28,147 bases of DNA from a virus, in the IMG/VR virus record IMGVR_UViG_3300046003_002170, positions 1 to 28,147 of that record; one strand, 5' to 3'. The translations under genes and the position numbers were made by a program. Numbering within the stretch: position 1 is the first letter of the stretch; every line of letters starts with the position of its first letter. Shown here in pieces: positions 5,211 through 20,302 of the stretch. The notes under the pieces are model-generated. The model did no database searches and was not told the origin of the DNA. It worked only from the letters and a program-made list of their open reading frames with translations.

Positions 5211-5219
5211 ATAAATATT
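5211..5219 (-). promoter_or_regulatory. AATATTTAT element upstream of the GIY-YIG gene
   Basis: On the - strand the spacer between two genes contains AATATTTAT, ending 13 bases before the GIY-YIG start codon. It is one of four identical 9-mers placed in short spacers of the - strand block (also at 5533-5541, 17463-17471 and 20320-20328). It could be a late-promoter box or a translation or processing signal. The function is inferred only from its repeated placement. Confidence 0.4.
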
Positions 5220-5532: not shown

Positions 5533-5541
5533 ATAAATATT
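5533..5541 (-). promoter_or_regulatory. AATATTTAT element upstream of the 102-residue module gene
   Basis: The element follows immediately after, and overlaps, the stop codon of the methyltransferase-glycosyltransferase fusion and ends 5 bases before the start of the next gene. It is identical over nine bases to three other spacer copies. Such a short distance to the start codon would leave almost no leader if it were a -10 box, so a translation-related role should also be considered. Confidence 0.35.
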
Positions 5542-7864
5542 AGTTCTCTCGTCTTTCCTCAGGTGTATAGAATTCTATTCTATTATGATTGATTGGACTC
5601 GCCAACAATATGGCTGGTTTTAAATTGCCTTTTTGAGTTTCTTGGAACATATAACTCATCCACGTTTGTTCGTAAGGTCTTGCCCATGTAGTATCTAAGA
5701 ACATCTTTTGATTTCCCTTTTTGCCTGCTATGGTTGGCCAATTGCAGTAGTAGATATCGCCTGTTATATAACTAACTCCATCTACAACTTCTATAGAATC
5801 AAATTTTGTTCTTGGACAATTAGGGTCTAATCCATTAGTAGGTAATTTATCGTAGTTGGGCCAAAACTCTGATCTTACTGTTTGAGGTACGTTATACCAA
5901 GACACTTGAATGTTATTATCCATGTAAACTTCGGTATACGATAACTTTAAAAAATCTATATCAGATCCTTCTATAATTTTTAATGCGGTATCGTATAAGT
6001 TAGGAACATAGAATCTAAATCCATTTCTACAGTATCCGGTTTGATCTGGAGCATGTATTCCCATATCGTCTTCTAAGAATAGATAATAATCACTATCAGA
6101 TTCTTGAAAGTGTTGAGCAGCTCTCATTCTACCGCCGTTTATACCAGTATTTTCGTTAGTGATAATGTGTTCGAAATTATATTTATCACATAACGCTTTA
6201 TTAGCTATTCTCGCTTCTTCGTTAGTAGAGTTATCTATTAATATATTTCTAGTCTGAGTTAAAAACTTATCGTGTTTTAACCAAGTTTGTATTGTGTGTT
6301 CTACTTGTTTAGGGAAATTAAATGTCAACATATAGATTGACATCTTTAAATTAGAAGTATTAACCTTCTTTACGATAGGTGCAACTTTGCCCTCTGGTAC
6401 CGGTTCTAATTGTATATTATCCTCTAATAAGTTCTGCGCAAATTTAACGATCAATCCATTAGAATCCAAAGAGTATCTTTTAAACGTATGAGGATCTTGA
6501 TAAGCCATAATACTAAAGATGCTCTCTTCTGTACCCATGTATCCATCACGTAATGTATTATTTAGTAAGTGCCAATACATCGAGTTTCCAGATATGATGC
6601 TTTCTCTTGTTCCACCAAAAAGACCGCCTCTACAAACGTATTTAACAGTTTCTCCAGCATAACGATTAATTGCATTAAAATCAAATCCGTGTATTTCGTC
6701 GTTAGCTTCGTAAGGGTAACTTAAGAATAAGAATGGATCGAAGTGAGGAATAATCTTATCTAGTATCTTGTGTTCCGTAAAATATTTTTCGTAAACAGTA
6801 TTAGTAATACCTGCATCCAACCACATGAAATATTCTGATTCGAATGGATCCCATACCGTAACGTTGTGTAACATTGAGAACTTGGACATTACTATTGGAT
6901 TGTACCACTCTAAAACGGCTTGAGGAGAATTTTTCAACCAACCATTTTCTCCTGTCATATTGTACCAAGCTGGATCGTTACGTATCTGTTGAGTTTTATC
7001 CCAAAAAGAATCGTACATTTGTTTCATGTCTTCTAACTCCCATATTTTAACAACGGTGTTAGATTTATCTCTTTTTTCCCAAACCAAATGTTCGTGTTTT
7101 GCGGAGATATGAATGTACATATTGCAGTCTGTTTCCAATAATTTTTGAAAACACTCTATATAGTGTTCGAAAGATCTACCAGGTCTACCGATATCCCACA
7201 ATCCTGTTACTACAGTTAATTTAGACTTTTTTAATTTTTGTGTTTCATCTTTTAGATAGCTTATTACTTTACAATCTTGATATTGATTTTCCAATTGTTG
7301 TTTTATATTTTCAAAATCTAATTTTCTAGAATCTAAAACGATATCTAATTTTTTATTTGATTGATTATCTTTAATGTAGATTCCGTAATCGTATCTAATA
7401 CACAGTGGTCTAAATCCTTTGTACTTCTCTAAAAAACTTTCGTTAGTTAAATTAGGTTGTAGGTGTATTTCGTATTTGTTATCTTCATAAATGCCCTGTT
7501 CTGAATTGAATGGAATTCCTATTATTAGATCGTTACACTTTTCGTATATGCGTTCTATAAATTTAATGCCTTCTGATTCTTCTATGTGTTCTAGTATGTC
7601 TCCTACTATAATTAAATCGTAGTAATTAAAATCAAAAGTAGTTGCGTCTTGTACGAATAAGTTTTTGTATTTTTCTCTTAGCGCAAACTGATCTACGTAT
7701 GGTTCGAATATTTCAACACCGTCCATCCCGTAAAAATGATTTCTAAAAAAATCGGCATAAGTACCGCATCCTGCACCGATGTCTAAAACTGTGCTTGTCT
7801 TATTAAACTTATTTTTTACAAAGTCTACTATTTCTTGTTTAAATATATTGGTAGAATGGGGCAT
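5540..7864 (-). CDS. Three-domain fusion: SAM methyltransferase, HtrL/YibB-like, GT-A glycosyltransferase
   Basis: This 774-residue protein appears to join three enzymes. Residues 1-165 form a class I SAM-dependent methyltransferase: VLDIGAGCGTYADFF (26-40) is the SAM-binding motif I and DLIIVGDILEHIEES (83-97) matches the later core strand. Residues about 216-480 resemble the HtrL/YibB family linked to lipopolysaccharide synthesis, starting TVVTGLWDIGRPGRS (217-231) with FMWLDAGI (346-353) and CRGGLFGG (411-418) further on. Residues 506-774 look like a family-2 type GT-A glycosyltransferase, with a nucleotide-sugar start (MSIYMLTFNFPKQVEHT), an NTGINGGRMRAAQ turn and the metal-binding EDD (598-600). 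It probably transfers and methylates sugars of a surface or virion glycan. It ends the glycan island. Substrates cannot be read from the sequence. Confidence 0.8.
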   Translation of the reverse strand: MPHSTNIFKQEIVDFVKNKFNKTSTVLDIGAGCGTYADFFRNHFYGMDGVEIFEPYVDQFALREKYKNLFVQDATTFDFNYYDLIIVGDILEHIEESEGIKFIERIYEKCNDLIIGIPFNSEQGIYEDNKYEIHLQPNLTNESFLEKYKGFRPLCIRYDYGIYIKDNQSNKKLDIVLDSRKLDFENIKQQLENQYQDCKVISYLKDETQKLKKSKLTVVTGLWDIGRPGRSFEHYIECFQKLLETDCNMYIHISAKHEHLVWEKRDKSNTVVKIWELEDMKQMYDSFWDKTQQIRNDPAWYNMTGENGWLKNSPQAVLEWYNPIVMSKFSMLHNVTVWDPFESEYFMWLDAGITNTVYEKYFTEHKILDKIIPHFDPFLFLSYPYEANDEIHGFDFNAINRYAGETVKYVCRGGLFGGTRESIISGNSMYWHLLNNTLRDGYMGTEESIFSIMAYQDPHTFKRYSLDSNGLIVKFAQNLLEDNIQLEPVPEGKVAPIVKKVNTSNLKMSIYMLTFNFPKQVEHTIQTWLKHDKFLTQTRNILIDNSTNEEARIANKALCDKYNFEHIITNENTGINGGRMRAAQHFQESDSDYYLFLEDDMGIHAPDQTGYCRNGFRFYVPNLYDTALKIIEGSDIDFLKLSYTEVYMDNNIQVSWYNVPQTVRSEFWPNYDKLPTNGLDPNCPRTKFDSIEVVDGVSYITGDIYYCNWPTIAGKKGNQKMFLDTTWARPYEQTWMSYMFQETQKGNLKPAILLASPINHNRIEFYTPEERREN

Positions 7865-7874
7865 TATTTTGTTT

Positions 7875-9527
7875 TTATTTTATAAAGTAGTAATCTTCTA
7901 TTATCAACCTGTCCATTTCAGATTCGTTAAATATTTTAAAAGCGTCCTTTAAGGTAGAAAGTATTGGTTTTCTATTTACGTTAAAAGAAGTGTTCAATAA
8001 AACACCAACGCCTGTTTTTTCGTGCATCTTAGTAAGAACGTCGTATATCCAAGCGTTTTGTTCTCTTGTAACTGTTTGCACTCTCGCTGTACCATCTACG
8101 TGAGTAATGGACACTAATTTATCTTTCCACTCTTCTTTTACTTTTGGACAGAAACTCATGTGTCTTGATTCTCCTTCCCATTCAAAGTAAGTAGAAACGT
8201 CTTCTAATCTAACCATAGGTGAAAAAGGTCTATACCACTCTCTATGTTTTACTTTAGCGTTTAGAATGTCTTTCATTTCTGGAATTGTAGGATCACATAT
8301 GATACTTCTATTTCCCAAGGCTCTTGGTCCATGTTCCGAATTTCCCCTAACTACACCCATGATAGATCCGTTTATTAAATCGTCTATAACTTCATCAATG
8401 TTAGTAATAGAGTCAGAAGGATAGTCTTCTGTATTTTCTTTTACTATTTTCTTGACTAGTTTAGCGCAACCTGTATTGAAGTATTCTGTAATTGCTCCGT
8501 AATCTAATATTGGAATTCCTTTATAGGTAATATCTACCGCTTGCTCTGGCTTTGTATGTGCTAACAATAAACCTAAAGCTAATCCACAATCGTTAGGATT
8601 CGGACCCACAAATACTTCTCTATTCAATTCTTGTTTTATTCTTGTGTTCAGTAATATATTCAATCCGCATCCTCCAGCTATACAAATTGGTAGATCTTTG
8701 TATTGTTCTAAATAAGGATTCGCTACTTCAAAGAAGCATTCTTCGAAAGCTCTTTGCGCTGTAGCCGCAATATCGTAAGCAGTTTGACCGGATAATCTAT
8801 CGTGTTTATTAAATGTAACTCCGATTCTATCGCCGATCAATCTTTGAATTTCTGCTTCGTATTCTCCGCTTTGCGCATTCTCTTTATAGTAGTCCATAAA
8901 ATAAGGAATCCAATCTTCGTGCACGTTACCATAAGAACACAATCCCATTATTTTTCCAGGGTAAACTAGGTTACCATCTACGATAGGCTCTTGATTTATG
9001 TCTGCGAAAAAATCTCCAAAGGTTGCATAAGGAAAACCTAAATCGTATTTAACATGATCGTTATTGTGTTTAGGATTAGAAACTGCTTCTAACAAAGTTA
9101 CGCCCTCTTTTCTATTCGCTTTGTATATATTAAATTTACCATCATTTCCTCCACCATCAAAAGAAAATATCAATGCATCTTGAAAATCTGATTGGTAAAA
9201 AGCTCCTGCAGCATGACCTTCGTGGTGATTTATTAAAACTGTATTTTTGTGAGGTATCATGTGGTGTAAATTATATGCTTTACCGTGCATATTAACTGTC
9301 ACAGAATTAACCATACAATTATCGAACTCTTCTATGTTGTAAGTTTTTAAAATCCACGAAACAACATTTTCCATTGTTAAGTGGATATCCTTTACAGTTT
9401 TGTATTGCGCTATTCCTCCATTTTTGTAATTTACAAATCTTTCCAATTCCAATACACAGAGAATTTCTCCGTCTTTTTCTATTGCGAAAGCCGAATTATG
9501 AGATCCGTAAAATCCTATATTAGTCAT
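7875..9527 (-). CDS. NodU/CmcH-family carbamoyltransferase
   Basis: This 550-residue protein transfers a carbamoyl group from carbamoyl phosphate (through a carbamoyl-adenylate) to a hydroxyl, typically on a sugar or polyketide. The N-terminal Kae1-like ASKHA domain starts GFYGSHNSAFAI (5-16). It carries the metal-binding HHEGHAAGAFYQS (101-113), FSFDGGGNDG (121-130), IAGGCGLNILLNTRI (283-297) and GPNPNDCGLALG (308-319). The C-terminal domain has RGNSEHGPRALGNRSI (394-409), HREWYRPFSPMV (428-439) and a late LLNTSFN block. The length matches the family and all main motifs appear intact. It overlaps the upstream glycosyltransferase by eight bases, so the two are coupled. In this island its probable acceptor is a sugar residue of the phage-encoded glycan. 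Confidence 0.93.
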   Translation of the reverse strand: MTNIGFYGSHNSAFAIEKDGEILCVLELERFVNYKNGGIAQYKTVKDIHLTMENVVSWILKTYNIEEFDNCMVNSVTVNMHGKAYNLHHMIPHKNTVLINHHEGHAAGAFYQSDFQDALIFSFDGGGNDGKFNIYKANRKEGVTLLEAVSNPKHNNDHVKYDLGFPYATFGDFFADINQEPIVDGNLVYPGKIMGLCSYGNVHEDWIPYFMDYYKENAQSGEYEAEIQRLIGDRIGVTFNKHDRLSGQTAYDIAATAQRAFEECFFEVANPYLEQYKDLPICIAGGCGLNILLNTRIKQELNREVFVGPNPNDCGLALGLLLAHTKPEQAVDITYKGIPILDYGAITEYFNTGCAKLVKKIVKENTEDYPSDSITNIDEVIDDLINGSIMGVVRGNSEHGPRALGNRSIICDPTIPEMKDILNAKVKHREWYRPFSPMVRLEDVSTYFEWEGESRHMSFCPKVKEEWKDKLVSITHVDGTARVQTVTREQNAWIYDVLTKMHEKTGVGVLLNTSFNVNRKPILSTLKDAFKIFNESEMDRLIIEDYYFIK

Positions 9528-10377
9528 TTTTTTCGTGTATTTTTGCGTAGTAATCCAATATGAAACTAACCCATTCTACTGGATAAGTGGCTTGATCGTT
9601 AACATGTTCTCCCGTTCTATTTCTTAAAACGTGGCATCCGCTACTTTCGAATGGTAAAGTATTCTTTAAAGGAAAACTATTACATGGTCTACCAAAATGA
9701 TTAACTAATCTAAAATCTGTTTCTTTGTCCCACGCTACGCACTTAATTTCGTATCCTTTTTTAGCAACGTAATAAGCCATAATAATATCGTCTGACCAGT
9801 GGAAGTTCATTAAAAAATCCTTATCTAAAAAGCTATCGTCAAAGAAAGATCTTTTATACGATACGGAATGCCAATGACCTGTAATGGCCAAATTCATGTC
9901 TTGTTTAACTGGAAAGTTGTCTCCTATGTGTAAGAATATGTGCTTCTTAATTCCATCCTCTTCCCACTCTCTTTTTTCATGGAGTCTATCTCCTCTAAAA
10001 GCTATAGCGCAATTAGGATACTCGTCTAATTTCTTTACGTGGTATTCTAACATGTCTTCGTGATACTCGTGGTCGTCATCGCACACAATCAATACATCGT
10101 CTGGTTCGTTTGTGTATAAAACACCTCCAACTATTTTTGTAACAGGACCATAATCTTCTCCTCTATTTAAAACCAATTTATCGTTTTCTTTTTGTAATTC
10201 TAATACCCACTCAGGAATTATAATTTCTTCGTTCTTTTCTTTGTACAATAAAGGTACATTATAAAGAACCTTATAATCTTTGTCTGTATTTTGATTTAAT
10301 AAAGAAAGTAGGTTTAGTTTTGCGGATCTTTCAAATTCCATTCTATTAGGAACCGTTGTTAGTGATATATAAATCAT
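9520..10377 (-). CDS. GT-A type glycosyltransferase
   Basis: This 285-residue protein looks like a family-2-like GT-A glycosyltransferase. It starts with a Rossmann-like ISLTTVPNRMEFERSAKLNL (4-23). The middle has GPVTKIVGG (77-85) and the acidic metal/nucleotide-sugar motif VCDDDHEY (98-105), where a DxD is expected. Later residues include AFRGDRLHEKREW and MNFHWSDDIIMAYYVAKKGY, the latter consistent with the acceptor-side D-D catalytic region. There is no membrane segment, so it should act in the host cytoplasm. It lies between the FkbM-type methyltransferase, one base away, and the carbamoyltransferase, with which it overlaps, so it probably adds a sugar that these enzymes decorate. Donor and acceptor are unknown. 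Confidence 0.75.
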   Translation of the reverse strand: MIYISLTTVPNRMEFERSAKLNLLSLLNQNTDKDYKVLYNVPLLYKEKNEEIIIPEWVLELQKENDKLVLNRGEDYGPVTKIVGGVLYTNEPDDVLIVCDDDHEYHEDMLEYHVKKLDEYPNCAIAFRGDRLHEKREWEEDGIKKHIFLHIGDNFPVKQDMNLAITGHWHSVSYKRSFFDDSFLDKDFLMNFHWSDDIIMAYYVAKKGYEIKCVAWDKETDFRLVNHFGRPCNSFPLKNTLPFESSGCHVLRNRTGEHVNDQATYPVEWVSFILDYYAKIHEKND

Positions 10378-10378
10378 C

Positions 10379-11119
10379 TTATAATAAATTTAAAAAGCTT
10401 AAGTCTAAATCGTCTTTTGATAAATTGTTTCTTCTATCCAAGTAACTGCACGGATATACTTTATTGTCCACCATTGTATAAGGTACTAAATCCTTATTAA
10501 TAAAAGTAAATTCAATAACGTCAGGTATAGAATACGGTTTTATGTAATTGTTTGGAAGTACTTCTTCATACACAAAATTATTTGCGTAATTATTACCGTG
10601 TACATGACAAAGCAAGTAGTGTTCGTTTAATTTTGCCATAGATTGGAAAAATTCCTCTCTTCTAACTGGATTAGACAAATAATGGAATTCGAAGATTAAT
10701 CCTGTAGTAATCTTGGCCATTTCTGCAATATCGGTATTTAAAATGAATTCGTACTCTGCTCCTTCGGCATCGCATTTGAATAACACCCTATCGCTAGCAT
10801 TTCTTTCTTTGTAATGTTCTAAGAAGTTATTCATGTTTTCGGCCTTAACTCCTGACAAACCTTCTTTTGTATAAATTAAATTAGGTTTGTAATTATCTTC
10901 TATTGCGATATCATCTATAGTGTGATCGAAACAGTATGCCATTCTGCCTGTTGCATCTACGTAGGCTTTTTCAAAAGAGATATCGTTACCAACTCCGTAA
11001 CTAAATAGAGCCGAACTTCTGCCTAAGGATTGTAGTGCTACTACGTAACCTCCATCCCAAAAATTGCCTATTCTAACTTTCTGTAAAATAGGATCGTAAA
11101 GCCTTAATAAATTTATCAT
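10379..11119 (-). CDS. FkbM-like SAM-dependent methyltransferase
   Basis: This 246-residue protein fits a class I methyltransferase related to the FkbM family, which usually O-methylates sugars or polyketides. The N-terminal part reads GNFWDGGYVVALQSL (18-32), then SYGVGNDISFEKAYVD (40-55) in the SAM-binding loop position. The family-type acidic core KCDAEGAEYEFI lies at 115-126, and a following strand LIFEFHYL matches the usual (V)xEFH pattern. It is somewhat short for FkbM, but no key segment is clearly missing. Its start codon shares a base with the stop of the GDP-mannose dehydratase (TAATG). Likely job: methylating a sugar hydroxyl of the glycan made by this island. Confidence 0.75.
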   Translation of the reverse strand: MINLLRLYDPILQKVRIGNFWDGGYVVALQSLGRSSALFSYGVGNDISFEKAYVDATGRMAYCFDHTIDDIAIEDNYKPNLIYTKEGLSGVKAENMNNFLEHYKERNASDRVLFKCDAEGAEYEFILNTDIAEMAKITTGLIFEFHYLSNPVRREEFFQSMAKLNEHYLLCHVHGNNYANNFVYEEVLPNNYIKPYSIPDVIEFTFINKDLVPYTMVDNKVYPCSYLDRRNNLSKDDLDLSFLNLL

Positions 11120-12087
11120 TATATTTTGTTTAAGTAAAAATCAATCATTTCGTCCATCGTATCTTCAAAACTAAATTCTGGTATCCAACCAGTATCTCTT
11201 GTTAATTTGCTGTGATCGCCTTTAAAATGTTTAGTTTCTTGAGGTCTCACAAAGTTTGGGTCTAATTTAACATAATCTCTATAGTCCATTCCCAATCTTC
11301 TGAAAACATATTCGCAAAGGTCCTTTATACTATGAACCTTGCCAGTAGCACATACATAGTCGTCTGCTTTGTCTTGTTGTAAAATTAAATGCATTGACTT
11401 AACATAATCTTTAGCGTGACCCCAATCTCTATACGAATCTAGGGTGCCCAATTTTAAATCCGCTTGAAGTCCTTTGTGTATTTTAACTGCGGCCTTAACC
11501 ACTTTAGTTGTAACAAAATTTTCTCCTCGTCTAGAAGATTCATGATTAAATAAAATACCATTACTGATATACATGTTGTAAGCCACTCTATAATTAACTC
11601 CAACATTAAAAGAAAATGCTTTGGCGCATGCGTAAGGATTCGCAGGTTTAAATGGAGTGGTTTCTCTCTGATAACCGTCTTCATCTATAGAACTTCCAAA
11701 CATTTCAGAAGTACAAGCCTGATACACTTTACTATTTGTAGAATGATGCCTTATGGCTTCCAATAAATTTAGTGTGCCAATTGCGATAGTATTTGCTGTG
11801 TATATTGGATTCTCGTAACTAACCTTAACATCCGATTGAGACGCGAGATTATATACTTCGTCTGGTTTTGATTTGTCAACTATCTTTTGCATAGAATCTA
11901 AATCCGTAAGGTCCGCGTATTCTAAATTAACGTCTTTTATTATGTGACCAATTCTTGAATTAATCACTTCGTCTATTGAATGTCTACGTATAGATCCAAA
12001 CACTTCGTATCCTTTAGAAAGAAGCAATTCTGCTAAAAATGACCCATCTTGACCCGTTATGCCGGTAATTAATGCTCTTTTTTTCAT
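11119..12087 (-). CDS. gmd: GDP-mannose 4,6-dehydratase
   Basis: This enzyme converts GDP-D-mannose to GDP-4-keto-6-deoxy-D-mannose, the precursor of fucose, rhamnose, perosamine and related deoxysugars. The extended-SDR features are complete. The NAD(P)-binding ALITGITGQDGSFLAELL lies at 5-22 (G9, G12 and G15), YADLTD at 57-62, and YNLASQSDV at 79-87. ACTSEMFG (124-131) holds the catalytic Thr/Glu, NPYACAK (150-156) gives the Tyr152/Lys156 pair, and NGILFNHESSRRGENFVTTK (176-195) is a GMD signature. GTLDSYRDWGHAKDYV follows. The length of 322 is slightly short of the usual ~340-370 residues. No 4-keto reductase, epimerase or aminotransferase gene is visible in the window, so the product must be finished by a host enzyme or by a gene elsewhere. 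It lies between the two GT60-like genes and the FkbM-type gene. Confidence 0.93.
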   Translation of the reverse strand: MKKRALITGITGQDGSFLAELLLSKGYEVFGSIRRHSIDEVINSRIGHIIKDVNLEYADLTDLDSMQKIVDKSKPDEVYNLASQSDVKVSYENPIYTANTIAIGTLNLLEAIRHHSTNSKVYQACTSEMFGSSIDEDGYQRETTPFKPANPYACAKAFSFNVGVNYRVAYNMYISNGILFNHESSRRGENFVTTKVVKAAVKIHKGLQADLKLGTLDSYRDWGHAKDYVKSMHLILQQDKADDYVCATGKVHSIKDLCEYVFRRLGMDYRDYVKLDPNFVRPQETKHFKGDHSKLTRDTGWIPEFSFEDTMDEMIDFYLNKI

Positions 12088-12088
12088 C

Positions 12089-13360
12089 TTATATTGCGTG
12101 TTCTACTCTTTCACACCAACCTCTTTGTTCGCTGTAAGCCCAATAAACAACTCTCTTTGGTTCTGTGTCGGTTAAGAAAAATTCTTCGTAATGTATTCTC
12201 TCGCCTTTGTTCATAAAGTTTTCTAGATCAAGTCCTGTTATGTACTTATTATTGATAGACTTTCCGTTTTCGTCGTCGAACGCAACAAGTATGTGTTTGT
12301 AATCTGTGCCCGGTAAATTATGTTTTTCTATATTAACTAAATAGTAGAATGACTTCATAAAAGATTGCTCCCATAACTCGTCGTCTTCTATCAATGGATT
12401 CGGTGGATACTTATTGTCCAAAGTGTATTTTTGAACAGCCTTTCTTTTGAAGTGAAAGCCTGCGTATTTCTCGTAGTCTTTTAAACTTCTTACCGTTCCT
12501 AAATCGTAACCAGTTAAATCTATGTTAGGATCCTCTTCAGTTCCCAATAAGACTCTGATCTTCTTTCTAGCATACTCTTGTTTGTTAAACCAATTCACTC
12601 CCAATTTAGAATCGTCGTCCCACTTCAACATACCTGCTCTTTCTTCTCTCATTGTAGAATGCCAAACAACTAATTTGTGTGGGTGGAATAAATCGTATCC
12701 ATGAGTGTAAGATCTAACTGTTAAGTTTAATTCCTCTCCACTAAAGTAGATATCCGGATCGTGTCTAATTTCTTTGGCCCATTCAGCTCTTGCAAAACAA
12801 AAATGACCTGATAAAAATCTACTCATTGGCGGTTTGGTCATGTCTTGCCAACCAGTTAATAATCCTGGTCTAATGAATATGGTTCCATGAGGATAGAAGC
12901 AAGCAAAGGTCTGCTGCCATGGCTCCATTGTGCGTCCTTCTGGATCGTTAAACGGATTGTACAAAGGTAAATAAGCCCCTAAGATTGGTTTGTACCCATC
13001 AGCTTCTAATTCACTATGCATGTCTATTAGAGTTACGTCCCAATCCTTTTCAAATCTATGATGAGAATCTAACTGTAAAATATAATCTTGGTTGGTCAAA
13101 AGCGTTTCGTTGATTTGAGCTCTTGCCCACGGTAAACCTTTTGCTTCTTTGTAAGGAACATCCATTATATGAAATCTTGAATCTTTTCTAAACTCATCAA
13201 GATTGTCAAATTCGTCAGTCTCACAGAATTGTCTACAAATACCAAAGTGTATTCTCTTTGGATACTTTGCATTTTCTAGTGCGTTCTTAATAGTTGGTAC
13301 CAATTCTGGGTCCCTATAAGCTGGCAAATGTACGAGTATGGTCTGTAACTTATTATTCAT
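12089..13360 (-). CDS. GT60-like GlcNAc transferase, copy 2
   Basis: This 423-residue protein resembles the glycosyltransferase (GlcNAc) family that includes UDP-GlcNAc:polypeptide and Skp1 hydroxyproline GlcNAc transferases (CAZy GT60). The start LVHLPAYRDPELVPTIKNAL (9-28) with AKYPKRIHFGICRQ (31-44) is the typical nucleotide-sugar region. The DxH-type motif LQLDSHHRF (95-103) is in the metal-binding position, and later HFCFARAEWAKE, FSGEELNLTVRSYTHGYD and HKLVVWHS complete the catalytic domain. The C-terminal ~100 residues, with LVAFDDENGK and RGWCERVEHAI, match the neighbouring paralogue but are not part of the standard domain. It overlaps the paralogue by eight bases. The substrate could be a Ser/Thr/Pro-rich protein or a growing glycan. 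Confidence 0.85.
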   Translation of the reverse strand: MNNKLQTILVHLPAYRDPELVPTIKNALENAKYPKRIHFGICRQFCETDEFDNLDEFRKDSRFHIMDVPYKEAKGLPWARAQINETLLTNQDYILQLDSHHRFEKDWDVTLIDMHSELEADGYKPILGAYLPLYNPFNDPEGRTMEPWQQTFACFYPHGTIFIRPGLLTGWQDMTKPPMSRFLSGHFCFARAEWAKEIRHDPDIYFSGEELNLTVRSYTHGYDLFHPHKLVVWHSTMREERAGMLKWDDDSKLGVNWFNKQEYARKKIRVLLGTEEDPNIDLTGYDLGTVRSLKDYEKYAGFHFKRKAVQKYTLDNKYPPNPLIEDDELWEQSFMKSFYYLVNIEKHNLPGTDYKHILVAFDDENGKSINNKYITGLDLENFMNKGERIHYEEFFLTDTEPKRVVYWAYSEQRGWCERVEHAI

Positions 13361-14609
13361 ATGATATTTTTTGTTCTATTCTTTCCATCCAGCCTTTAGA
13401 CTCTGAATGAGGCCAAACTCTCCAACATACTGGTCTTTCTACTGCTTCAAAATTTCTCCATATATGAATGAACTTATTATTAGCCTCAAGATTCATCATA
13501 CTTTGAATTTCTCCCTTATTACAATCTTGTCGGTATACGTCTTCTCCGTTCTCATCCAAAAATGCAACAACAAAAGAATCGTAATCCGTTTCTGTTAAAG
13601 AGCCTTTATAAATGTCTATGCAATATTTTTGGCTAGAAGCAAGACCTGATTCGTAATCTGATTTTATTGGAGGAAGACTGTTTTTTAAAGTCTCTCTGTG
13701 TATTTGTCTTGTTGCGAATTTTAAACCTGCATATTTTTCAAAATCTGTTAAAGATCTAGCTGGTCCGAATCCATAAGGCGCTAATGCTTTTCTTTGACAA
13801 GGCGTGCAACCCGGATCCATACCAAATAGTTTTCTAAATCTTGCGTATGAGTCGTCGTCTTTTTGTTTCCAATCTTGACTGTCGTCCCAATGTCTTTTCT
13901 TTCCCTCTCTCGTGTATTCGTGCCATACAATCACTTTGTGTGGAGCAAATAAATCGTATCCATGAGTGTAAGCTCTAGCTGCTAAAGAACTCTCTTCTCC
14001 ATGAAAGTATAAATTAGGATCGTAAGGCACTTCTTTTGCAAATTTTCCAATTGTAAAAATAAAGTGAGCGGATATGAATCTAGTTAAGAAGGGTTCTTTT
14101 AATTCTTGAAATTTATCTATGTGATGAGGTCTTAAGAATATTGCGCCTGCGGGCATAAATCTATCTATGTTCAAACCCCAAACTTCGTTAACCCTATTTT
14201 CAGGATCTTTTTCAGGGAAGTATCCGGGAATGTAAGCTGATAGTAAAGGCTTCTCATGACCTTTACACATAAGATAGTGCAATAGATCTTTTAATTGTAC
14301 GTCCCAATCTTTTGTAAATCTGTGATGAGAATCTAATTGAAGGTAATAGTCTTCGTCAGTGTAAAGCTTTTGTATTTCGCTTCTTGCCCAACAAACGCCT
14401 TTGGACTCCTTATAGTCGATATCAATAATCTTAAATCGTGGGTCCTTTTTGTATTTCTTTAGAGTGTCCCATTTGTCTTCTTTTGAATGTTGCCACCCTA
14501 TACAAATGACAAGGTCTTGAGGGTACTTTGCGTTCTCTAATAAATTTTCAAGTGTGGGAAGTAATTCGGGATCTCTATAAGAAGCGATCGAAACAAATAT
14601 TTTGGCCAT
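13353..14609 (-). CDS. GT60-like GlcNAc transferase, copy 1
   Basis: This 418-residue protein is a clear paralogue of the next gene and has the same layout. IFVSIASYRDPELLPTLENL (4-23) and LENAKYPQDLVICIGWQ (24-40) form the first strands. SKGVCWARSEIQ (69-80), LQLDSHHRFTKDWD (90-103) with the DxH motif, and SAHFIFTIGKFAKE follow, with FHGEESSLAARAYTHGYD and HKVIVWHEYTREG late in the domain. These match the GlcNAc transferase family found in eukaryotic protein-glycosylating enzymes and in many bacteria and phages. The C-terminal extension VAFLDENGE, then ESKGWMERIEQKI, is shared with the paralogue. It is the first gene of the glycan island after an AT-rich spacer. The PS/T-rich virion protein gene lies just upstream, making that protein an attractive but unproven acceptor. 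Confidence 0.87.
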   Translation of the reverse strand: MAKIFVSIASYRDPELLPTLENLLENAKYPQDLVICIGWQHSKEDKWDTLKKYKKDPRFKIIDIDYKESKGVCWARSEIQKLYTDEDYYLQLDSHHRFTKDWDVQLKDLLHYLMCKGHEKPLLSAYIPGYFPEKDPENRVNEVWGLNIDRFMPAGAIFLRPHHIDKFQELKEPFLTRFISAHFIFTIGKFAKEVPYDPNLYFHGEESSLAARAYTHGYDLFAPHKVIVWHEYTREGKKRHWDDSQDWKQKDDDSYARFRKLFGMDPGCTPCQRKALAPYGFGPARSLTDFEKYAGLKFATRQIHRETLKNSLPPIKSDYESGLASSQKYCIDIYKGSLTETDYDSFVVAFLDENGEDVYRQDCNKGEIQSMMNLEANNKFIHIWRNFEAVERPVCWRVWPHSESKGWMERIEQKISYE

Positions 14610-14665
14610 AACTTAATTTAAAACTTTTATTTTATATTTTTAAATTTATTTTTAAAGTGCTATTA
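14610..14665 (-). promoter_or_regulatory. AT-rich spacer ahead of the glycan island
   Basis: This 56-base gap lies between the small gene at 14666-14830 and the first GT60-like gene. It is almost pure A/T and contains AAAATAAATTT and AATATAAAATAAAAG on the - strand, similar to A/T-rich phage promoters. There is no GC hairpin, so no terminator separates virion genes from glycan genes. It is the longest gene-free stretch within the - strand block, so a promoter for the glycan genes is plausible. No exact consensus is matched. Confidence 0.3.
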
Positions 14666-14830
14666 TTAGTTTATAGATACAATAGTTCCACCCATTTTTT
14701 CTAAACGCTTATTAGCTTCAACTTGGACTTGTTCAATTGCTTCTTGATAACTGTTGGTATAGGCCACATATGGGAATGTAACCTGTGTTACACCATCAGC
14801 TTTTAGATAAATAAATTCTATATTATACAT
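14666..14830 (-). CDS. Small hypothetical protein, 54 residues
   Basis: This short ORF reads from ATG at 14830 to TAA at 14666-14668, starting 16 bases after the stop of the long repeat protein. It fills an otherwise empty 236-base gap, which supports it being real. The product begins with two beta-like strands (MYNIEFIYLKADGVTQVTFP), followed by a helix (SYQEAIEQVQVEANKRLEKM) and a short end strand (GGTIVSIN). This beta-beta-alpha-beta outline would suit a compact binding protein. No family is recognised. It could assist the repeat proteins or the glycosyltransferases, but position is the only evidence. Confidence 0.6.
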   Translation of the reverse strand: MYNIEFIYLKADGVTQVTFPYVAYTNSYQEAIEQVQVEANKRLEKMGGTIVSIN

Positions 14831-14846
14831 TTTTCGTATTTTTTAA

Positions 14847-17450
14847 TTATTCTGGTGCTGGTGGAGCAGTACATTGTGCTGCTGTAGGACAAGATACATA
14901 AGAAGTAGAATTCATTAGTATTGCAGGTGAACCAGATTGGAATATACTTCCAATTTTATAAGCAAATCCTGTACCAGAAGTTGGTCTATAATATCTTGTA
15001 GGATTTGGACTAAAGCCTGGTGTAAACGCGCCATATGCTTCAATCCCATTATCAACACAATCACCGTCAAGGCATCCATATTCATACATTATGAATATAT
15101 CATAATTAACTGGTGTCGAAACAGATACGCTAGGACAAGGAGTGGTAGGTGGCGTCACAGAAGGCGTAAGAGATACTGGAGGAGTTGTGCCACAAGCTGC
15201 GTAACAGGTATCGTAAGGCGTTGTACTACACAATGTTCCACCTAATGATGGATCAACTGAATTTATAATTTTGTACGAATAATCTTGGAATCCGCTAGCT
15301 TGCAAGTAGAATTTTCCGACTACAGCAGAATAATTACTAGGGAACTTGGCGTAAGTGTCGAACTGTGATCCGTATTCGCATCCTAATCCACAATTATGAG
15401 CTTCAACATAGTAACTATTATATGTAGGAGTAACAGGCGGTGTCAAAGAAGGCGTAAGAGATACCGGAGGAGTCACACTAGGAGTTAAAGATACAGAAGG
15501 AACTCCCGAACAGTCATAAACTACATTATTAATATATCCATAGGCGTCTACAGTTACTGCGTATTTATCAAGACTTCTTTGAAATAAATAATATCCACTA
15601 GTAGTAGCGGGATTCCAGTAAGTGGTTAGGGTGTTATCCGTATATAATCGAGCTCCTACAGTAGGAACCGCTCCATAAGCTGGGGCTTGCCAAATAGTAG
15701 TTCCGGTAATAGTGCCCAAACAAGCGAGATACGTAGTAGCATAAGTAGATGTAGATCTCACAAAACTAAACGGCATCTGAGTTGGTGTAATACTAGGGGT
15801 TAATGTGATACTAGGAGTAATACTGATTGTAGGAGTAATCGATATAGTAGGAGTCATAGATGGAGTCCTAGATATAGAAGGCGTAATGGAAACTGAAGGA
15901 GTGACGCTAGGAGTCAAGGATATCGATGGTATAGTAGAACAATCTACAAAGTCTAAGATCTGGCCTAGAGCTCCAATTTTTACTGCCCATACTGTAGCGC
16001 CTCTTTGCATTTTGTGATAGTTAGTACCACCATCATAAGTAGTCGTTAAACCAGTATCCGTATAAACGTAGTGATTTAAAACTGGACTCGTATCTCCTGG
16101 CATCATGTATCTATTAACAGTAGGATTGCCATTAGCGCAAGCTAAGAAAGCAGTAGAGTACTGAGATAGATCGGTAAAGTAAGCTAAAGCTTGTTGTGTA
16201 GTCGTAATTGATGGAGTTACAGATAAACTAGGAGTTAACGATGGTGTTCTTGTTATACTAGGCGTTATTGTTATACTAGGAGTAATGCTAACAGTTGGCG
16301 TTACACTCGGAGTTAATGTTACGCTAGGCGTAATACTTGGAGTTATAGATACTGTAGGCGTAATACTGATAGTAGGACTCACTGTAATAGTAGGCGTTAA
16401 ACTAGGCGTTCTTGTTATAGAAGGTGTTATTGATACCGTAGGAGTCATACTCGGAGTTAGCGTAATACTTGGAGTTATAGATACACTAGGCGTAATACTA
16501 ATAGTTTGACTTACGCTAGGTGTTATTGTTACACTAGGCGTTACACTAACAGTAGCTGTTGTACTTGGAGTTAATGTAATGCTAGGCGTTATACTAACCG
16601 TAGGACTCACTGTAATAGTAGGAGTTAAACTTGGTGTTATAGACACTGTCGCAGTGATAGTAACAGTCGGAGTCATACTCGGAGTTAACGTTATCGAAGG
16701 AGTTACACTAGGAGTTCTAGTAATACTTGGAGTAAGAGTAACTGAAGGCGTTATAGAAACTGTAGGAGTTACACTAGGCGTTAATGTTACACTAGGTGTT
16801 AACGTTATGCTTGGCGTAATTGAAACCGTAGGCGTAGTGCTCGGAGTCAATGTAACGCTTGGAGTAAGAGTGAATGTAGGTGTAATTGAAATTGTAGGTG
16901 TAGTACTTGGAGTCAATGTAATACTTGGCGTTAGAGTAATACTTGGAGTAATTGAAACCGTAGGAGTTACACTAGGAGTTCTAGTAATACTCGGAGTTAG
17001 AGTTACACTAGGCGTAATTGAAACTGTAGGAGTTACACTGGGAGTTCTAGTAATACTCGGTGTTAATGTAACGCTTGGAGTAATTGAAACCGTAGGAGTT
17101 AATGATACACTAGGAGTTTTAGTAACGCTAGGAGTCAATGTCACACTAGGAGTTAAAGTTATGCTTGGAGTTAAAGTTATGCTTGGAGTAACTGTAACGC
17201 TAGGAGTGAGGCTATAACTAGGAACAACAAAATTGTATCTGACTCTATTGCCGCTTCCGTAAGGGTCTAAATTCTCTAATTCTACGTAGTAACTAAAATC
17301 GTCTACATAAACTTCCTTTCCAGCAATTAAAACATCTAACGGAACACTGGTAGCGGTCAAAGTGCCGGCGCCGGTGAACGAGGTATTGTATCGGATATTG
17401 AAGGGTCCGACAGAGTTACCATAGTCCGTTAATGTTATTAATATTTGCAT
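14847..17450 (-). CDS. Mucin-like Pro-Ser/Thr repeat virion protein with cysteine modules
   Basis: This 867-residue protein is probably a tail-fibre or surface decoration protein. Residues 1-78 form a non-repetitive beta-rich head (MQILITLTDYGNSVGPFNIR...), likely the attachment domain. Residues 79-417 are a low-complexity array of TPSxTxTPS-type hexads with a 22-residue higher-order period at 118-249. Two similar globular modules follow, at 421-507 and 560-650. They share Y-(S/A)-T-x-(F/Y)-LAC, (V/L)YTD..LTT, an M/F-QR segment and a closing (V/Y)DCS. A shorter repeat linker (508-558) separates them. Two further modules with paired cysteines (678-756 and 782-860) end the chain. There is no signal peptide or membrane segment. 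Repeated Ser and Thr flanked by Pro make it a good candidate for O-glycosylation by the nearby GT60-like enzymes, which is inference. Adhesion is the likeliest function. Confidence 0.8.
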   Translation of the reverse strand: MQILITLTDYGNSVGPFNIRYNTSFTGAGTLTATSVPLDVLIAGKEVYVDDFSYYVELENLDPYGSGNRVRYNFVVPSYSLTPSVTVTPSITLTPSITLTPSVTLTPSVTKTPSVSLTPTVSITPSVTLTPSITRTPSVTPTVSITPSVTLTPSITRTPSVTPTVSITPSITLTPSITLTPSTTPTISITPTFTLTPSVTLTPSTTPTVSITPSITLTPSVTLTPSVTPTVSITPSVTLTPSITRTPSVTPSITLTPSMTPTVTITATVSITPSLTPTITVSPTVSITPSITLTPSTTATVSVTPSVTITPSVSQTISITPSVSITPSITLTPSMTPTVSITPSITRTPSLTPTITVSPTISITPTVSITPSITPSVTLTPSVTPTVSITPSITITPSITRTPSLTPSLSVTPSITTTQQALAYFTDLSQYSTAFLACANGNPTVNRYMMPGDTSPVLNHYVYTDTGLTTTYDGGTNYHKMQRGATVWAVKIGALGQILDFVDCSTIPSISLTPSVTPSVSITPSISRTPSMTPTISITPTISITPSITLTPSITPTQMPFSFVRSTSTYATTYLACLGTITGTTIWQAPAYGAVPTVGARLYTDNTLTTYWNPATTSGYYLFQRSLDKYAVTVDAYGYINNVVYDCSGVPSVSLTPSVTPPVSLTPSLTPPVTPTYNSYYVEAHNCGLGCEYGSQFDTYAKFPSNYSAVVGKFYLQASGFQDYSYKIINSVDPSLGGTLCSTTPYDTCYAACGTTPPVSLTPSVTPPTTPCPSVSVSTPVNYDIFIMYEYGCLDGDCVDNGIEAYGAFTPGFSPNPTRYYRPTSGTGFAYKIGSIFQSGSPAILMNSTSYVSCPTAAQCTAPPAPE
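15501..15773 (-). other. Globular module B of the repeat protein
   Basis: This codes for residues about 560-650. It matches the module at 15930-16190 in order and spacing: YATTYLACLG versus YSTAFLACANG, LYTDNTLTTYW versus VYTDTGLTTTYD, LFQRSLDKYAVTVD versus KMQRGATVWAVKIG, and YDCSGVPS versus VDCSTIPS. The paired Cys residues could form a bond or bind a ligand. I do not know the fold. Confidence 0.6.
15777..15929 (-). repeat. Second Pro-Ser/Thr repeat tract
   Basis: This tract encodes residues 508-558 and is built from the same TPSxSxTP-type hexads as the long array. It separates the two similar globular modules and so acts as a linker or stalk segment. Confidence 0.85.
15930..16190 (-). other. 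Globular module A of the repeat protein
   Basis: This codes for residues about 421-507, the first of the two similar modules placed between repeat tracts. It has LAC near the start and DCS at the end, with YTD..LTT and QR in the middle. Its likeness to module B points to duplication together with the adjoining repeat linker. Confidence 0.6.
16200..17216 (-). repeat. Long Pro-Ser/Thr-coding repeat array
   Basis: About 1 kb of DNA encodes some 339 residues of mainly Thr, Pro, Ser, Val, Ile and Leu in six-residue steps (TPSVTL, TPSITR, TPTVSI and similar). At DNA level the units differ mostly at third codon positions, so both the hexad and the 66-base period can be seen. The reverse strand of this array is open over long stretches and gives hydrophobic Val/Gly/Leu phantom proteins, which are not real genes. 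Confidence 0.95.
16704..17099 (-). repeat. Six tandem 66-bp units inside the array
   Basis: Residues 118-249 consist of six consecutive 22-residue units, starting at residues 118, 140, 162, 184, 206 and 228. Each reads TP-T-(V/I)-SI, then TPxxTL, then TPSxT(L/R), then TPS(V/T). The first two units have identical protein sequence and very similar DNA. Such an array can expand or contract by whole units without breaking the frame. Confidence 0.9.
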
Positions 17451-17462
17451 CTATCTCTTTTT

Positions 17463-17471
17463 ATAAATATT
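17463..17471 (-). promoter_or_regulatory. AATATTTAT element upstream of the repeat protein
   Basis: The element lies in the 28-base spacer between the 369-residue virion gene and the mucin-like gene, ending 12 bases before the latter's start. On the - strand it is followed by AAAAAGAGATAG and the ATG. It is identical to three other spacer copies in the block. Confidence 0.4.
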
Positions 17472-17478
17472 TTTATTC

Positions 17479-18588
17479 TTATACTGAACATACAGTTGAA
17501 CAGTTTGTGCTATGGACGCTGATGTCTAATATAATTGCTACTCCGTAAGTACTGTATTCAGTTATCTTATATACAAATCCAGTATGACCAATATCAGAGT
17601 AGTAGTGAGTGCTAATGTATCCGGATCCTTGAGGAATAGCCACTAACACATCGGTATTGATTAAAGTACATCCAGGGAAATCACAACTATACTCGTTGGC
17701 TAAATAGAAGTCGTAAAGTGAAGGAAGACTAGGCGATATAGACACACTTACGGTAACACTAGGAGTAATCGATACAGTAGGCGTTTTACTTGGTGTAAGT
17801 GTTATGCTTGGCGTAATACTGAAAGTAGGCGTAATACTAGGTGTCAAAGATATCGATAAACCTGGTGTATTAGAAATACTAACTGTTGGTGTTATGGAAA
17901 CAGTTGGAGTTAGCGTAACACTTGGAGTTTGCGTAATACTTGGAGTAACACTAGGAGTAATAGATAAACTAGGACTCACCGATATACTAGGGCTTGGTGG
18001 TATTACAGAAACGGAAAAAGTAAAGTGATTATCCGATAAAGCCGGGATATAGTTTGTATTGACTACAGTTACAATACCTTGAGCATACAAAATATTACCA
18101 ACGTGTTCGTAATTATTGAATGCATCGACAATATTTCCGTTTCCGTCGTCTATAATTTTGTAAGTGCTATTATTTGTAGATTCCCAAGTAAAGGTTTTTC
18201 TAGCAATTTGCTCTCCAAAAGTTCTTGTAGGTATTGCAAAGAATCTTATTTCATCTCCACTTGCGGTAGGAAAATATCTAAGATCGTTATCGTAACTTCC
18301 TGATGCAGCTGTAGATTGGAGACTTGGATTGTATCCACTTCCTGTTCCTAATAAAGAAGATGAAATGTATTCTTTGTAGTAAAGCTGTTGTATAGTTTTA
18401 TACTTAAGCGCATACTGAACGTTTGGGCTTAGTACAGAACCAGATAAAACAGTGGGTACATTTACCCCTTTATTTTGAGTAATTCCATAAGAAGCCAGAG
18501 ATGAACTGGCGAAAGATGAAGAATACTTTAATTTTATTGGGGTAGTTGTTATATCTGAAAACCGTATGGTATTCTTTGCGATACTCAT
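17479..18588 (-). CDS. Virion protein with Pro-Ser/Thr stalk and C-terminal cysteine module
   Basis: This 369-residue protein has three parts. Residues 1-190 form a beta-rich head that includes EIRFFAIPTRTFGEQIARKT (113-132) and IIDDGNGNIVDAF (145-157), patterns found in virion proteins of T4-like environmental phages. Residues about 197-290 form a Pro-Ser/Thr stalk of the same type as in the 867-residue protein. Residues 291-369 form a cysteine module (YDFYLANEYSC, then CTLINTD, YYSDIGHTGFVYKI, and final CSTVC) that resembles the two modules at the end of the larger protein. The two genes are 28 bases apart and probably make partners in one fibre or decoration complex. There is no signal peptide. 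The exact position on the particle cannot be told. Confidence 0.75.
   Translation of the reverse strand: MSIAKNTIRFSDITTTPIKLKYSSSFASSSLASYGITQNKGVNVPTVLSGSVLSPNVQYALKYKTIQQLYYKEYISSSLLGTGSGYNPSLQSTAASGSYDNDLRYFPTASGDEIRFFAIPTRTFGEQIARKTFTWESTNNSTYKIIDDGNGNIVDAFNNYEHVGNILYAQGIVTVVNTNYIPALSDNHFTFSVSVIPPSPSISVSPSLSITPSVTPSITQTPSVTLTPTVSITPTVSISNTPGLSISLTPSITPTFSITPSITLTPSKTPTVSITPSVTVSVSISPSLPSLYDFYLANEYSCDFPGCTLINTDVLVAIPQGSGYISTHYYSDIGHTGFVYKITEYSTYGVAIILDISVHSTNCSTVCSV
17719..18000 (-). repeat. Pro-Ser/Thr repeat tract of the 369-residue virion protein
   Basis: This tract encodes residues 197-290, built from TPSVTL/TPTVSI-type hexads with some Ser-rich variants (SVSISPSLPS). It is shorter and less regular than the array in the neighbouring gene, and shares its codons and motif, which suggests a common origin. 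Confidence 0.88.
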
Positions 18589-18591
18589 TTA

Positions 18592-19632
18592 CTACCAGTC
18601 TAATTTTACTCTAACTAATGCTTCTTTGGTGAAATCTTTAACTAAAGGTTTTGATAACTTTGCAACGGCTAAAAGCTCGTTGTTATTGTTATACATGCCC
18701 ACAGTTGTCATATATGTTTGAGGACTATTGATAAAGTTAGAATAAACTAAATTACCAGATCCAGATATAAATGAAGGATTAGAAGTGTAATTATACTCAC
18801 CATTTTTAATTCTTACAAACACATAATCAGAAGATATTGTTTCTTGAGAATTTAATGTAAATCCAACGCTTGAAGCGCCGCTGCCACTAATTAAACTAAA
18901 CATCTTAGCGTTATTCAAACCATTTACTGTGGTAAGAGTTGACCATGTTACATTTAAACCTCCGCTTGCTACTGGTGCTCCTAATGCTTTTGGATTCAAG
19001 ATAATCAATCCAACGTCTGGTAAAAATAAACCGTAAGAACCGGAGTTAGTGTAACCTTTGGTTGGATTTCCTTGAGGAGTAACCGTTAAACTTGCTGCAG
19101 TGCCATTAGAACCAGAAATAATATCAAAAGCTCTTCCACAATCTAGGTAAGTAACCGTAGATACGTCGTTAGAGTTATCAGTCAATCTTAAAGAATCACT
19201 ACCATTTTTTAGAATTAAATTAAAAGTACCTGGAAATAAATTTCCCTTGTATCTATTTCTATCTATAGGAATTGCAATAAGATCTAAAGAAGAGGTATTG
19301 CCAGTTCCAAAGTTTACAGCAGACTCAGCGTCTCCGTAAATAAGATTTCTATATTGACCGTAAGTGATTCTACTAGGCGTATTCTGAGGTACCAAACTAT
19401 TTAAAGGCACTGAACCAGTTCCGTCGATGTGACCGTAAGCAATAGAGAATTGTACTGCTGCTGCGCTATCAGTAGAGGCGGTTTGATATACGTCTACGTA
19501 ATAACTACCAGTCGCATTACCTGAAAGAGTATAAAATGATGTTAATGTTGGTGCGTTTGTACTCCAAGCTGGTGCAGTAACTGAATCTGAGGATACTACG
19601 AAATCGGTTGGATCAAGCTTTGTGAAAGACAT
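18592..19632 (-). CDS. Phage virion protein with reusable C-terminal module
   Basis: This 346-residue protein is a beta-rich virion component. Its centre includes ITYGQYRNLIYGDAES (89-104) and LDLIAIPIDRNRYKG (116-130), followed by FPGTFNLIL. This layout recalls the (A)IP..(R/T)..(F/Y)G segment of the next protein and known T4-like tail proteins. Residues about 265-346 form the module that is encoded separately at 5219-5527 (NYTSNPS, MTTVGMYNNNNELLAVAKLS, LDW end). The composition is Ser/Thr/Asn/Gly-rich without Cys clusters or a membrane segment. It lies three bases from the next gene and ten from the previous one, inside the structural operon. A tail-fibre or baseplate peripheral role is likely. 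No exact homologue is recognised. Confidence 0.75.
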   Translation of the reverse strand: MSFTKLDPTDFVVSSDSVTAPAWSTNAPTLTSFYTLSGNATGSYYVDVYQTASTDSAAAVQFSIAYGHIDGTGSVPLNSLVPQNTPSRITYGQYRNLIYGDAESAVNFGTGNTSSLDLIAIPIDRNRYKGNLFPGTFNLILKNGSDSLRLTDNSNDVSTVTYLDCGRAFDIISGSNGTAASLTVTPQGNPTKGYTNSGSYGLFLPDVGLIILNPKALGAPVASGGLNVTWSTLTTVNGLNNAKMFSLISGSGASSVGFTLNSQETISSDYVFVRIKNGEYNYTSNPSFISGSGNLVYSNFINSPQTYMTTVGMYNNNNELLAVAKLSKPLVKDFTKEALVRVKLDW

Positions 19633-19642
19633 ATACTAAGTA

Positions 19643-20302
19643 TTATTGATTTGTTTTAATGATTGTTACAGGTACACTAATTCTAGCTCCAGAGTCTCTA
19701 CCTACAACGATTAATGTTGTTTGAAGAGTGCTGTTTGTACCGAATAAAGTATTTACTGTTGTAGCGGTCAAGTTAATTGTGGTACCAATAACTGTCTTAC
19801 TTACGTTAGTTCCAATGGTTGTTGTAGCGTTCAAAGAAGTAACCTCAGGCGTGTTTATACCAACTCCTGTAACATTACTCATTGTTCTTACATCTCCTAT
19901 AGTTACAACGTAGCCTGATTGCTCATATGTGCTTGTAGCGCCCAAATAGTTCAATGTTTGAGGTGTAATTGACAAAGAAGCTCCTTGACGTAAGCTAATA
20001 TTATTGTATCCAATATCCAATACTGGAAGTTTTGCTGTACCTCTTGGTAAAGTGATCAACTTATATTTCATGATTTCAGTATCGTCAGGGAAGGCCTGTA
20101 ATACTGGCATCGCTTCTATGGCTTCTCCGTAGAAAGCAGATCCTGAAGGATGGTTTGGATTATACAAAGTGTAATCTATCTCGTCGTCTGACAAAGAAAA
20201 TTGTGTAATTTGAAAAGAGCCGTCGTTTCTGGCCAATAATTCTCTACCTTTTTTGGTTAGAATTGCGTCTACTACGACTGAAGTGCTACTTAAATAAGAC
20301 AT
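19643..20302 (-). CDS. Virion structural protein, 219 residues
   Basis: The N-terminal part (SVVVDAILTKKGRELLARND at about 8-27, then FQITQFSLSDDEIDYTLYN) is a pattern I associate with a structural protein found next to tail/baseplate genes of many T4-like environmental phages. The C-terminal half (from about residue 105) is Thr/Asn/Val-rich with repeated short strands (TTTIGTNVSKTVIGTTINLT) and looks like an immunoglobulin-like beta domain, ending VPVTIIKTNQ. No enzyme motif is seen. It follows the 1352-residue tail protein across a 27-base spacer that contains an AATATTTAT element, so it may begin a separately expressed late group. Confidence 0.75.
   Translation of the reverse strand: MSYLSSTSVVVDAILTKKGRELLARNDGSFQITQFSLSDDEIDYTLYNPNHPSGSAFYGEAIEAMPVLQAFPDDTEIMKYKLITLPRGTAKLPVLDIGYNNISLRQGASLSITPQTLNYLGATSTYEQSGYVVTIGDVRTMSNVTGVGINTPEVTSLNATTTIGTNVSKTVIGTTINLTATTVNTLFGTNSTLQTTLIVVGRDSGARISVPVTIIKTNQ

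Follow-up and report, generated by a model that had tools for sequence, protein, structure and literature searches.

A predicted phage-encoded mucin-type O-glycosylation system in a tail operon of virus record IMGVR_UViG_3300046003_002170

Described systems and their relation to the locus

Mucin-type O-glycosylation, in which a sugar is transferred from a nucleotide sugar directly to Ser/Thr-rich stalks by a GT-A enzyme of the DxH type, is a process known from eukaryotes (animals, trypanosomes and apicomplexans). In the virus record IMGVR_UViG_3300046003_002170, which was analysed over its entire length of 28,147 bases (the window), two adjacent genes encoding proteins with long tracts rich in serine, threonine and proline (S/T-P tracts), the open reading frames (ORFs) ORF369 and ORF867, are followed on the same strand by two genes for glycosyltransferases of family GT60, GT60-A and GT60-B. 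We read this arrangement as phage-encoded mucin-type O-glycosylation of baseplate-proximal stalks, with a probability of about 0.7. Virion glycosylation and mucin-type initiation by GT60 enzymes are both already known in kind, and the system of the window would be a variant of them.

The eukaryotic GT60 enzymes TcOGNT of Trypanosoma cruzi and Skp1 Gnt1 of Toxoplasma and Dictyostelium are polypeptide alpha-GlcNAc-transferases (GlcNAc, N-acetylglucosamine), which have the Pfam family PF11397 and the DxH motif in common with the window enzymes. The T. cruzi enzyme forms GlcNAc-alpha-Thr in mucins (PMC9472816), and the acceptor proposed for the window is mucin-like and Thr/Ser-rich, as in T. cruzi (PMC9472816, PMC6939170). 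Unlike the eukaryotic enzymes, those of the window are phage-encoded, presumably cytoplasmic instead of Golgi-located, and present as paralogues A and B in a tail operon, and GT60-A has an additional C-terminal domain (about residues 300-418). The DxH motif and Ser/Thr O-glycosylation are also common to GT60 and family GT27 (PMC7185993), and GT27 enzymes, the polypeptide GalNAc-transferases that initiate mucin-type glycosylation in animals and Toxoplasma, represent the closest solved folds to GT60-A over about 260-280 aligned residues, with 12-17% identity and with the Foldseek alignment covering the catalytic part.

Among phages, the Xanthomonas jumbo phage XacN1, a distant relative of RaK2 (PMC5852040), resembles the window in having a GT60 homologue (ORF334), an adjoining carbamoyltransferase gene, an S/T-P protein (ORF350) and virion glycoproteins. 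At least two of the latter were detected by its authors, who suggest its two glycosyltransferases, including ORF334, as candidates (PMC5852040). XacN1 differs from the window in its single GT60 gene and in the location of the tract gene ca. 12 kb off; in the available portions of the authors' text, enzyme and tract are left unconnected, and tail fibres are reported as not observed. In the mycobacteriophages Che8, Corndog and Myrna (Freeman et al. 2023), virion glycosylation is phage-encoded and may have a shielding role (cited in PMC12619734, PMC12363180); the C-termini of capsid and tail-tube proteins are modified there, whereas the window would involve long S/T-P stalks near the baseplate, enzymes of a different family and an exchangeable sugar cassette. 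No publication joining GT60, phages and S/T-P tracts was found in a search that left out most subscription journals and preprints.

Fold of the GT60 enzymes and composition of the tracts

The genes for GT60-A (13353..14609, minus strand; also phrog_24687) and GT60-B (12089..13360, minus strand) were assigned through Pfam PF11397, GT60 being the family of its characterised members according to the papers. With E values of 1.8e-70 for GT60-A and 9.5e-54 for GT60-B, the two downstream GT60-like genes of the sequence-only reading were confirmed, and the scores of the two enzymes were 183.6 and 238.6 bits against a curated cut-off of 21. GT60-B is 43-44% identical to GT60-A and keeps the DSHH motif. 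The DxH motif of GT60-A is D93-S94-H95, and D93, H95, H230 and R234 were invariant in 90 relatives of this enzyme; judging by GT27 structures, H230 would be the third metal ligand.

The model of GT60-A, which was built on the alignment of these 90 relatives, reached a predicted local distance difference test score (pLDDT) of 95.4 and a predicted template modelling score of 0.91. In a Foldseek comparison against the PDB, ranks 1-32 were polypeptide GalNAc-transferases (GalNAc, N-acetylgalactosamine; best E value 1.6e-11), and after re-scoring with VIA-align these enzymes occupied ranks 1-29 (Z 19.7-23.2), followed by a Leptospira transferase (Z 16.9) and SpsA (16.6). The model thus has a GT-A catalytic fold of the polypeptide GalNAc-transferase type, and its residues beyond about 330, where a GT27-type enzyme would be expected to have its C-terminal ricin-type lectin domain, barely aligned to these enzymes in the whole-model comparison. 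The C-terminal domain, which lies beyond the Pfam match, consists mostly of strands. PDB sequence searches with one GT60 protein and with a 93-row profile returned no glycosyltransferase, and only the fold comparison gave matches to such enzymes. Membership of GT60-A in GT27 by sequence was rejected, its best Pfam match being PF11397 and no GT27 chain being returned by the PDB profile search.

Both GT60-A and GT60-B are predicted polypeptide O-glycosyltransferases; a shared fold is no proof of function, and the choice of donor is not readable from it. Glycosylation of phage DNA is an established phenomenon (cited in PMC12619734), and the transferases could in principle modify phage DNA to give hypermodified bases, which we consider very improbable, given that the nearest solved folds of GT60-A are polypeptide transferases and that no base-modification gene was matched among the window ORFs scanned, a subset of all its ORFs and without a genome-wide search.

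The tracts were delimited by a fixed composition rule (50-amino-acid windows with at least 18% Pro and at least 40% Ser+Thr). ORF867 (867 amino acids; 14847..17450, minus strand) is composed of an N-terminal domain, three tracts and about four small beads, the tracts comprising residues 76-296 (16563..17225), 304-420 (16191..16541) and 503-567 (15750..15944), in sum 403 residues. In ORF369 (369 amino acids; 17479..18588, minus strand), a tail-region protein, an N-terminal domain (about residues 1-190) is followed by a tract of 112 residues (180-291; 17716..18051) and a small C-terminal bead. Two pairs of beads are alike, one formed by the first and second bead of ORF867, the other by its fourth bead and the C-terminal end of ORF369. 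The tracts contain 17-18% Pro, 44-51% Ser+Thr and 2-4 charged residues each, and 100 versions of the window simulated with a first-order Markov model yielded no ORF that satisfied the rule, which bears out the description of two adjacent genes with long Pro-Ser/Thr tracts.

Being long, Ser/Thr-rich, Pro-containing, charge-poor and tandemly repeated, the tracts correspond in composition to mucin-type stalks, and differ from animal mucins in strict alternation. In animal mucins Ser and Thr stand in clusters, and the order of the window tracts is stricter: the frequency of Ser/Thr after Ser/Thr was 0.93 at lag 2 and 0.03 at lag 1 in the four window tracts, and 0.82 and 0.12, respectively, in 115 tracts from GT60-positive viral loci. 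Parity of Ser/Thr positions was 0.89 as observed versus 0.61 in shuffled tracts. In ORF867, 65 of the 69 Pro spacings counted among the leading classes were of 6 or 4 residues (48 and 17, respectively). Comparison of phage L006 with its near-identical relative L007 revealed tract indels of 14, 6, 6, 2 and 6 residues, all even, with beads almost unchanged, and these even lengths together with the lag-2 alternation indicate that a two-residue register is kept. Like alternation was seen in tracts found by a TPS[I/V] DNA pattern, the pattern itself selecting for TPS[I/V]. The register is compatible either with a one-faced acceptor array or with a beta-like stalk.

Co-occurrence of tracts and GT60 genes

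Among 86 GT60 loci, a count that includes XacN1 and RAS14 and keeps near-duplicates, a tract ORF was identified within the fetched stretch in 51, usually immediately upstream of GT60-A. Six contigs of 106-233 kb without a neighbouring tract (L049, L059, L054, L056, L064 and L057) had tracts elsewhere according to whole-contig scans, and the same holds for the contig of L032, via L118. All 14 examined GT60-positive contigs of at least 90 kb (8 scanned whole, 6 in the fetched locus; the 91-kb GT60-positive contig G108 is left out) contained a tract, sometimes far from GT60, and so did three of eight scanned contigs of 54-74 kb (G051, G055 scanned without its last 179 bases, and G061). Both elements are present in two cultured phages, RAS14 (GT60 together with 9 tract ORFs no shorter than 150 amino acids) and XacN1 (GT60 and a 263-residue tract), and neither GT60 nor tract was found in RaK2.

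For matched controls, 80 viral loci were collected via a conserved tail-region protein (19643..20302, minus strand), and absence of GT60 was checked on the whole record in 41 of the 80 and on the fetched locus alone in the rest. The 53 anchored loci with at least 4 kb downstream divided into 5 with both, 7 with tract only, none with GT60 only and 41 with neither (Fisher p 2.8e-4), two of the tract-only loci (L100 and L118) belonging to contigs with GT60 elsewhere. No tract was found in any of the 8 GT60-negative relatives scanned whole, i.e. five tail-anchored contigs (94-173 kb), RaK2, and two contigs from a DNA-polymerase set, in which these were 2 of 7 GT60-negative relatives of at least 100 kb. 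The N-terminal domain of ORF369 is common to phages without a tract, and its orthologues carried a tract in 18 of 19 GT60-positive versus 2 of 39 GT60-negative loci (Fisher p 7.6e-12, kinship ignored). This count drops L091, L093, L026, L007, L019, L094 and L040 as duplicates or near-duplicates, together with orthologues cut by the locus end, the raw rows including duplicates being 24, 2, 6 and 43.

In a tree of the tail-region protein upstream of ORF369 (18592..19632, minus strand), which comprised 66 loci, at least 7 changes were counted for GT60 and 11 for the tract. The tree drops L091, L093, L026, L007, L019 and loci with less than 4 kb downstream and no tract, and counts L039 and L040, the tract of which lies upstream of the anchor, as GT60 without tract. 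The co-variation is consistent in direction, the independent events being few. Together, the fold with its invariant DxH motif, the co-occurrence in 18 of 19 versus 2 of 39 loci and the virion glycoproteins of XacN1 largely support the proposal of the sequence-only reading that a glycan is placed on the phage's own fibres, with the tract as acceptor. GlcNAc as the sugar donated, and shielding or adhesion as the role, are still guesses in that reading.

Several results weigh against this assignment. The tree contains 5 independent supported pairs with unlike GT60 state, in which the tract changes the same way as GT60 in 4.4 and the opposite way in 0.1 on average (sign test p 0.06-0.38). In a reversed test, meant to break the link, contigs were picked by the TPS[I/V] DNA pattern, and PF11397 was absent from 24 and present in 9 of 33; at lengths of at least 100 kb, 6 of 13 were without it and 7 with it. 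One tract protein of 308 amino acids occurs both in the GT60-positive contig G085 and in GT60-negative contigs such as G077. Tracts were missing from 5 of the 8 GT60-positive contigs of 54-74 kb (G064, G071, G062, G072 and G113), which is not decisive because these are fragments. In L136 (6300-12183), a tract protein with 920 tract residues in total is directly followed, as read by eye, by homologues of the small end protein and the GIY-YIG endonuclease that flank the sugar genes of the window, without the sugar cassette itself. The glycoproteins of XacN1 are not matched to its tract protein in the available text of its authors.

The 308-amino-acid tract protein is located at L398:5233-6159, L413:2761-3687 and related sites. 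By the reversed test, the candidate rule that a tract implies GT60 was ruled out: GT60 without an acceptor seems rare, and an acceptor-like tract without GT60 is common. The joint occurrence that the sequence-only reading had proposed to look for in related phages was therefore obtained in one direction, in the orthologous loci and in all 14 long contigs, and is qualified by the many tracts without GT60 and the five tract-less fragments. GT60-negative phages with tracts may use host enzymes or other transferases, or leave the stalk unmodified.

Four bacterial loci had GT60 beside an S/T-P protein (Jiulongibacter L174, Gemmatimonas L176, Prosthecobacter L182, and L192), a tally without base-rate control. 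In L174:7942-11227 and L192:7468-13752, the S/T-P protein flanked by GT60 genes is small and, as read by eye, has a twin-arginine-like start, and this arrangement is possibly a cellular version of the system. By the rule, 22 of 80 bacterial GT60 loci had a tract ORF; several of these ORFs, from G+C-rich genomes, resemble chance frames, and L173 and L198 have the appearance of phage contigs.

The tracts that exist without GT60 would suit a spacer that is extended or beta-rich and stays unmodified, GT60 then targeting another virion protein (capsid, tail tube or beads) and both being parts of large tail-decoration modules. Strict alternation, which would put all hydroxyls on one face of a beta-strand, could have a structural reason of this kind without glycosylation, and in mycobacteriophages glycosylation is reported for capsid and tail tube, not for stalks (PMC12619734, PMC12363180). 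Nevertheless, the co-variation concerns a tract inside one orthologous protein, GT60 stands beside S/T-P proteins in the four bacterial chromosomal loci, and characterised GT60 relatives act on Thr-rich mucins (PMC9472816), so that we regard an unmodified spacer as rather unlikely.

Tail operon, sugar cassette and proposed pathway

The right half of the window is a minus-strand tail operon, with the genes in the order gp25-like, baseplate-J/wedge, several tail-region proteins, ORF369, ORF867, GT60-A, GT60-B and five sugar genes. The gp25-like baseplate wedge protein is encoded at 27709..28122, and the baseplate J/wedge (gp6-like) protein (25844..27706) puts the operon in a contractile-tail module. 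The model of the ORF369 N-terminal domain, of moderate confidence (pLDDT 75), matched predicted phage proteins named LamG, ConA-like lectin and baseplate wedge subunit, and gave no match in the PDB at E≤0.001. On the basis of these matches and of the same-strand baseplate genes upstream, ORF369 and ORF867 are putative virion-type proteins, the label that the sequence-only reading had given them. A tblastn query with the tract protein in a phage collection yielded one weak place, because low complexity is filtered.

ORF867 and GT60-A are separated by a gap of 237 nt for which no terminator-like site was listed, in line with the earlier claim that no terminator intervenes. The gap is occupied by a 54-codon ORF (14666..14830, minus strand), read by eye. 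Inside ORF867, ca. 0.8 kb before GT60-A, there is a perfect sigma-70 consensus (TTGACA, 18 nt, TATAAT) at 15446-15417 on the minus strand, which might drive the cassette or else be a chance occurrence.

Downstream of GT60-B, all on the minus strand, profile matches identified a GDP-mannose 4,6-dehydratase-like gene (11119..12087), an FkbM-like methyltransferase gene (10379..11119; a weak match below the Pfam cut-off), a GT2-like glycosyltransferase gene (9520..10377), a NodU/Nol-like carbamoyltransferase gene (7875..9527) and a methyltransferase/HtrL_YibB/GT2-like fusion (5540..7864), in agreement with the sugar genes named from sequence alone. The cassette ends with a small protein (5219..5527) and is flanked there by a GIY-YIG endonuclease of the SegE family (4700-5197; PF19835, E value 4e-27), both likewise on the minus strand. 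The cassette was compared with 18 relatives, some loci of which are cut short, so that absences are upper bounds. GT60-A was present in all 18 (54-94% identity), a clear GT60-B orthologue (69-85%) in 14, the fusion in 16 and the small end protein in 17, while the counts for the other genes were 0 (GDP-mannose dehydratase), 4 (FkbM-like gene), 6 (GT2-like gene) and 5 (carbamoyltransferase). In L006, GT60-A is 94% identical, yet different genes lie between GT60-B and the fusion. In sequence comparison, the cassette resembles a constant initiating step combined with outer sugars that can be replaced.

Tract genes were also identified between GT60-A and GT60-B in L025, L026, L027 and L030; the two GT60 genes are adjacent in most other close relatives. 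Of the 86 GT60 loci, 26 have a homologue of the GIY-YIG endonuclease, and the endonuclease could be a driver of cassette exchange.

Sporadic presence and polymorphism led Iyer and co-workers to assign glycosyltransferase clusters of cyanophages and jumbo phages a role in altering the host surface polysaccharide (capsule or lipopolysaccharide) to exclude other phages (PMC7824862). The window cassette is polymorphic too, and on such an account the neighbourhood of the tract would be incidental. This appears quite improbable for the window, where the seven cassette proteins gave no match to a flippase, a polymerase or a lipid-carrier transferase, the fold neighbours of GT60-A are polypeptide transferases, tract and GT60 co-vary, and the cassette sits in a tail operon.

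For glycosylation of the stalks, the order of the genes, the fold and motif of the enzyme, its co-occurrence with tracts and the exchange of cassette genes are observations, and the action of the enzymes on the tract, the sugar and the purpose are a proposal, which runs as follows. Late in infection, both tract proteins would be present in the host cytoplasm and dock near the baseplate through the conserved N-terminal domain, exposing extended stalks with Ser/Thr at every other position and Pro at intervals of 4 or 6 residues. GT60-A, together with GT60-B, would transfer the first sugar, probably GlcNAc or GalNAc, from a uridine diphosphate sugar directly onto tract hydroxyls, and the conserved HtrL/GT2 fusion would lengthen the glycan. 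The exchangeable set (deoxysugar synthesis, methylation, carbamoylation and further transferases) would then finish it into a phage-specific coat. The stalk would thereby probably gain stiffness, hydration and resistance to proteases, along with a variable surface made by the phage itself.

Beyond the window, we lean towards the view that phage mucins with dedicated initiators are widespread, GT60 and register-locked (S/T-X)n stalks co-evolving in large phages that are unrelated to one another and also in some bacteria, and interchangeable cassettes providing serotype-like coats. Viral contigs frequently contain PF11397 genes (at least 586 were counted), and the system, if true, would account for this frequency and give a function to the low-complexity TPS/TPT tracts of large phages. 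Stalk glycans would then extend the short list of glycosylated virions known so far, and a simple one-enzyme, one-peptide route to engineered O-glycoproteins in bacteria would become available.

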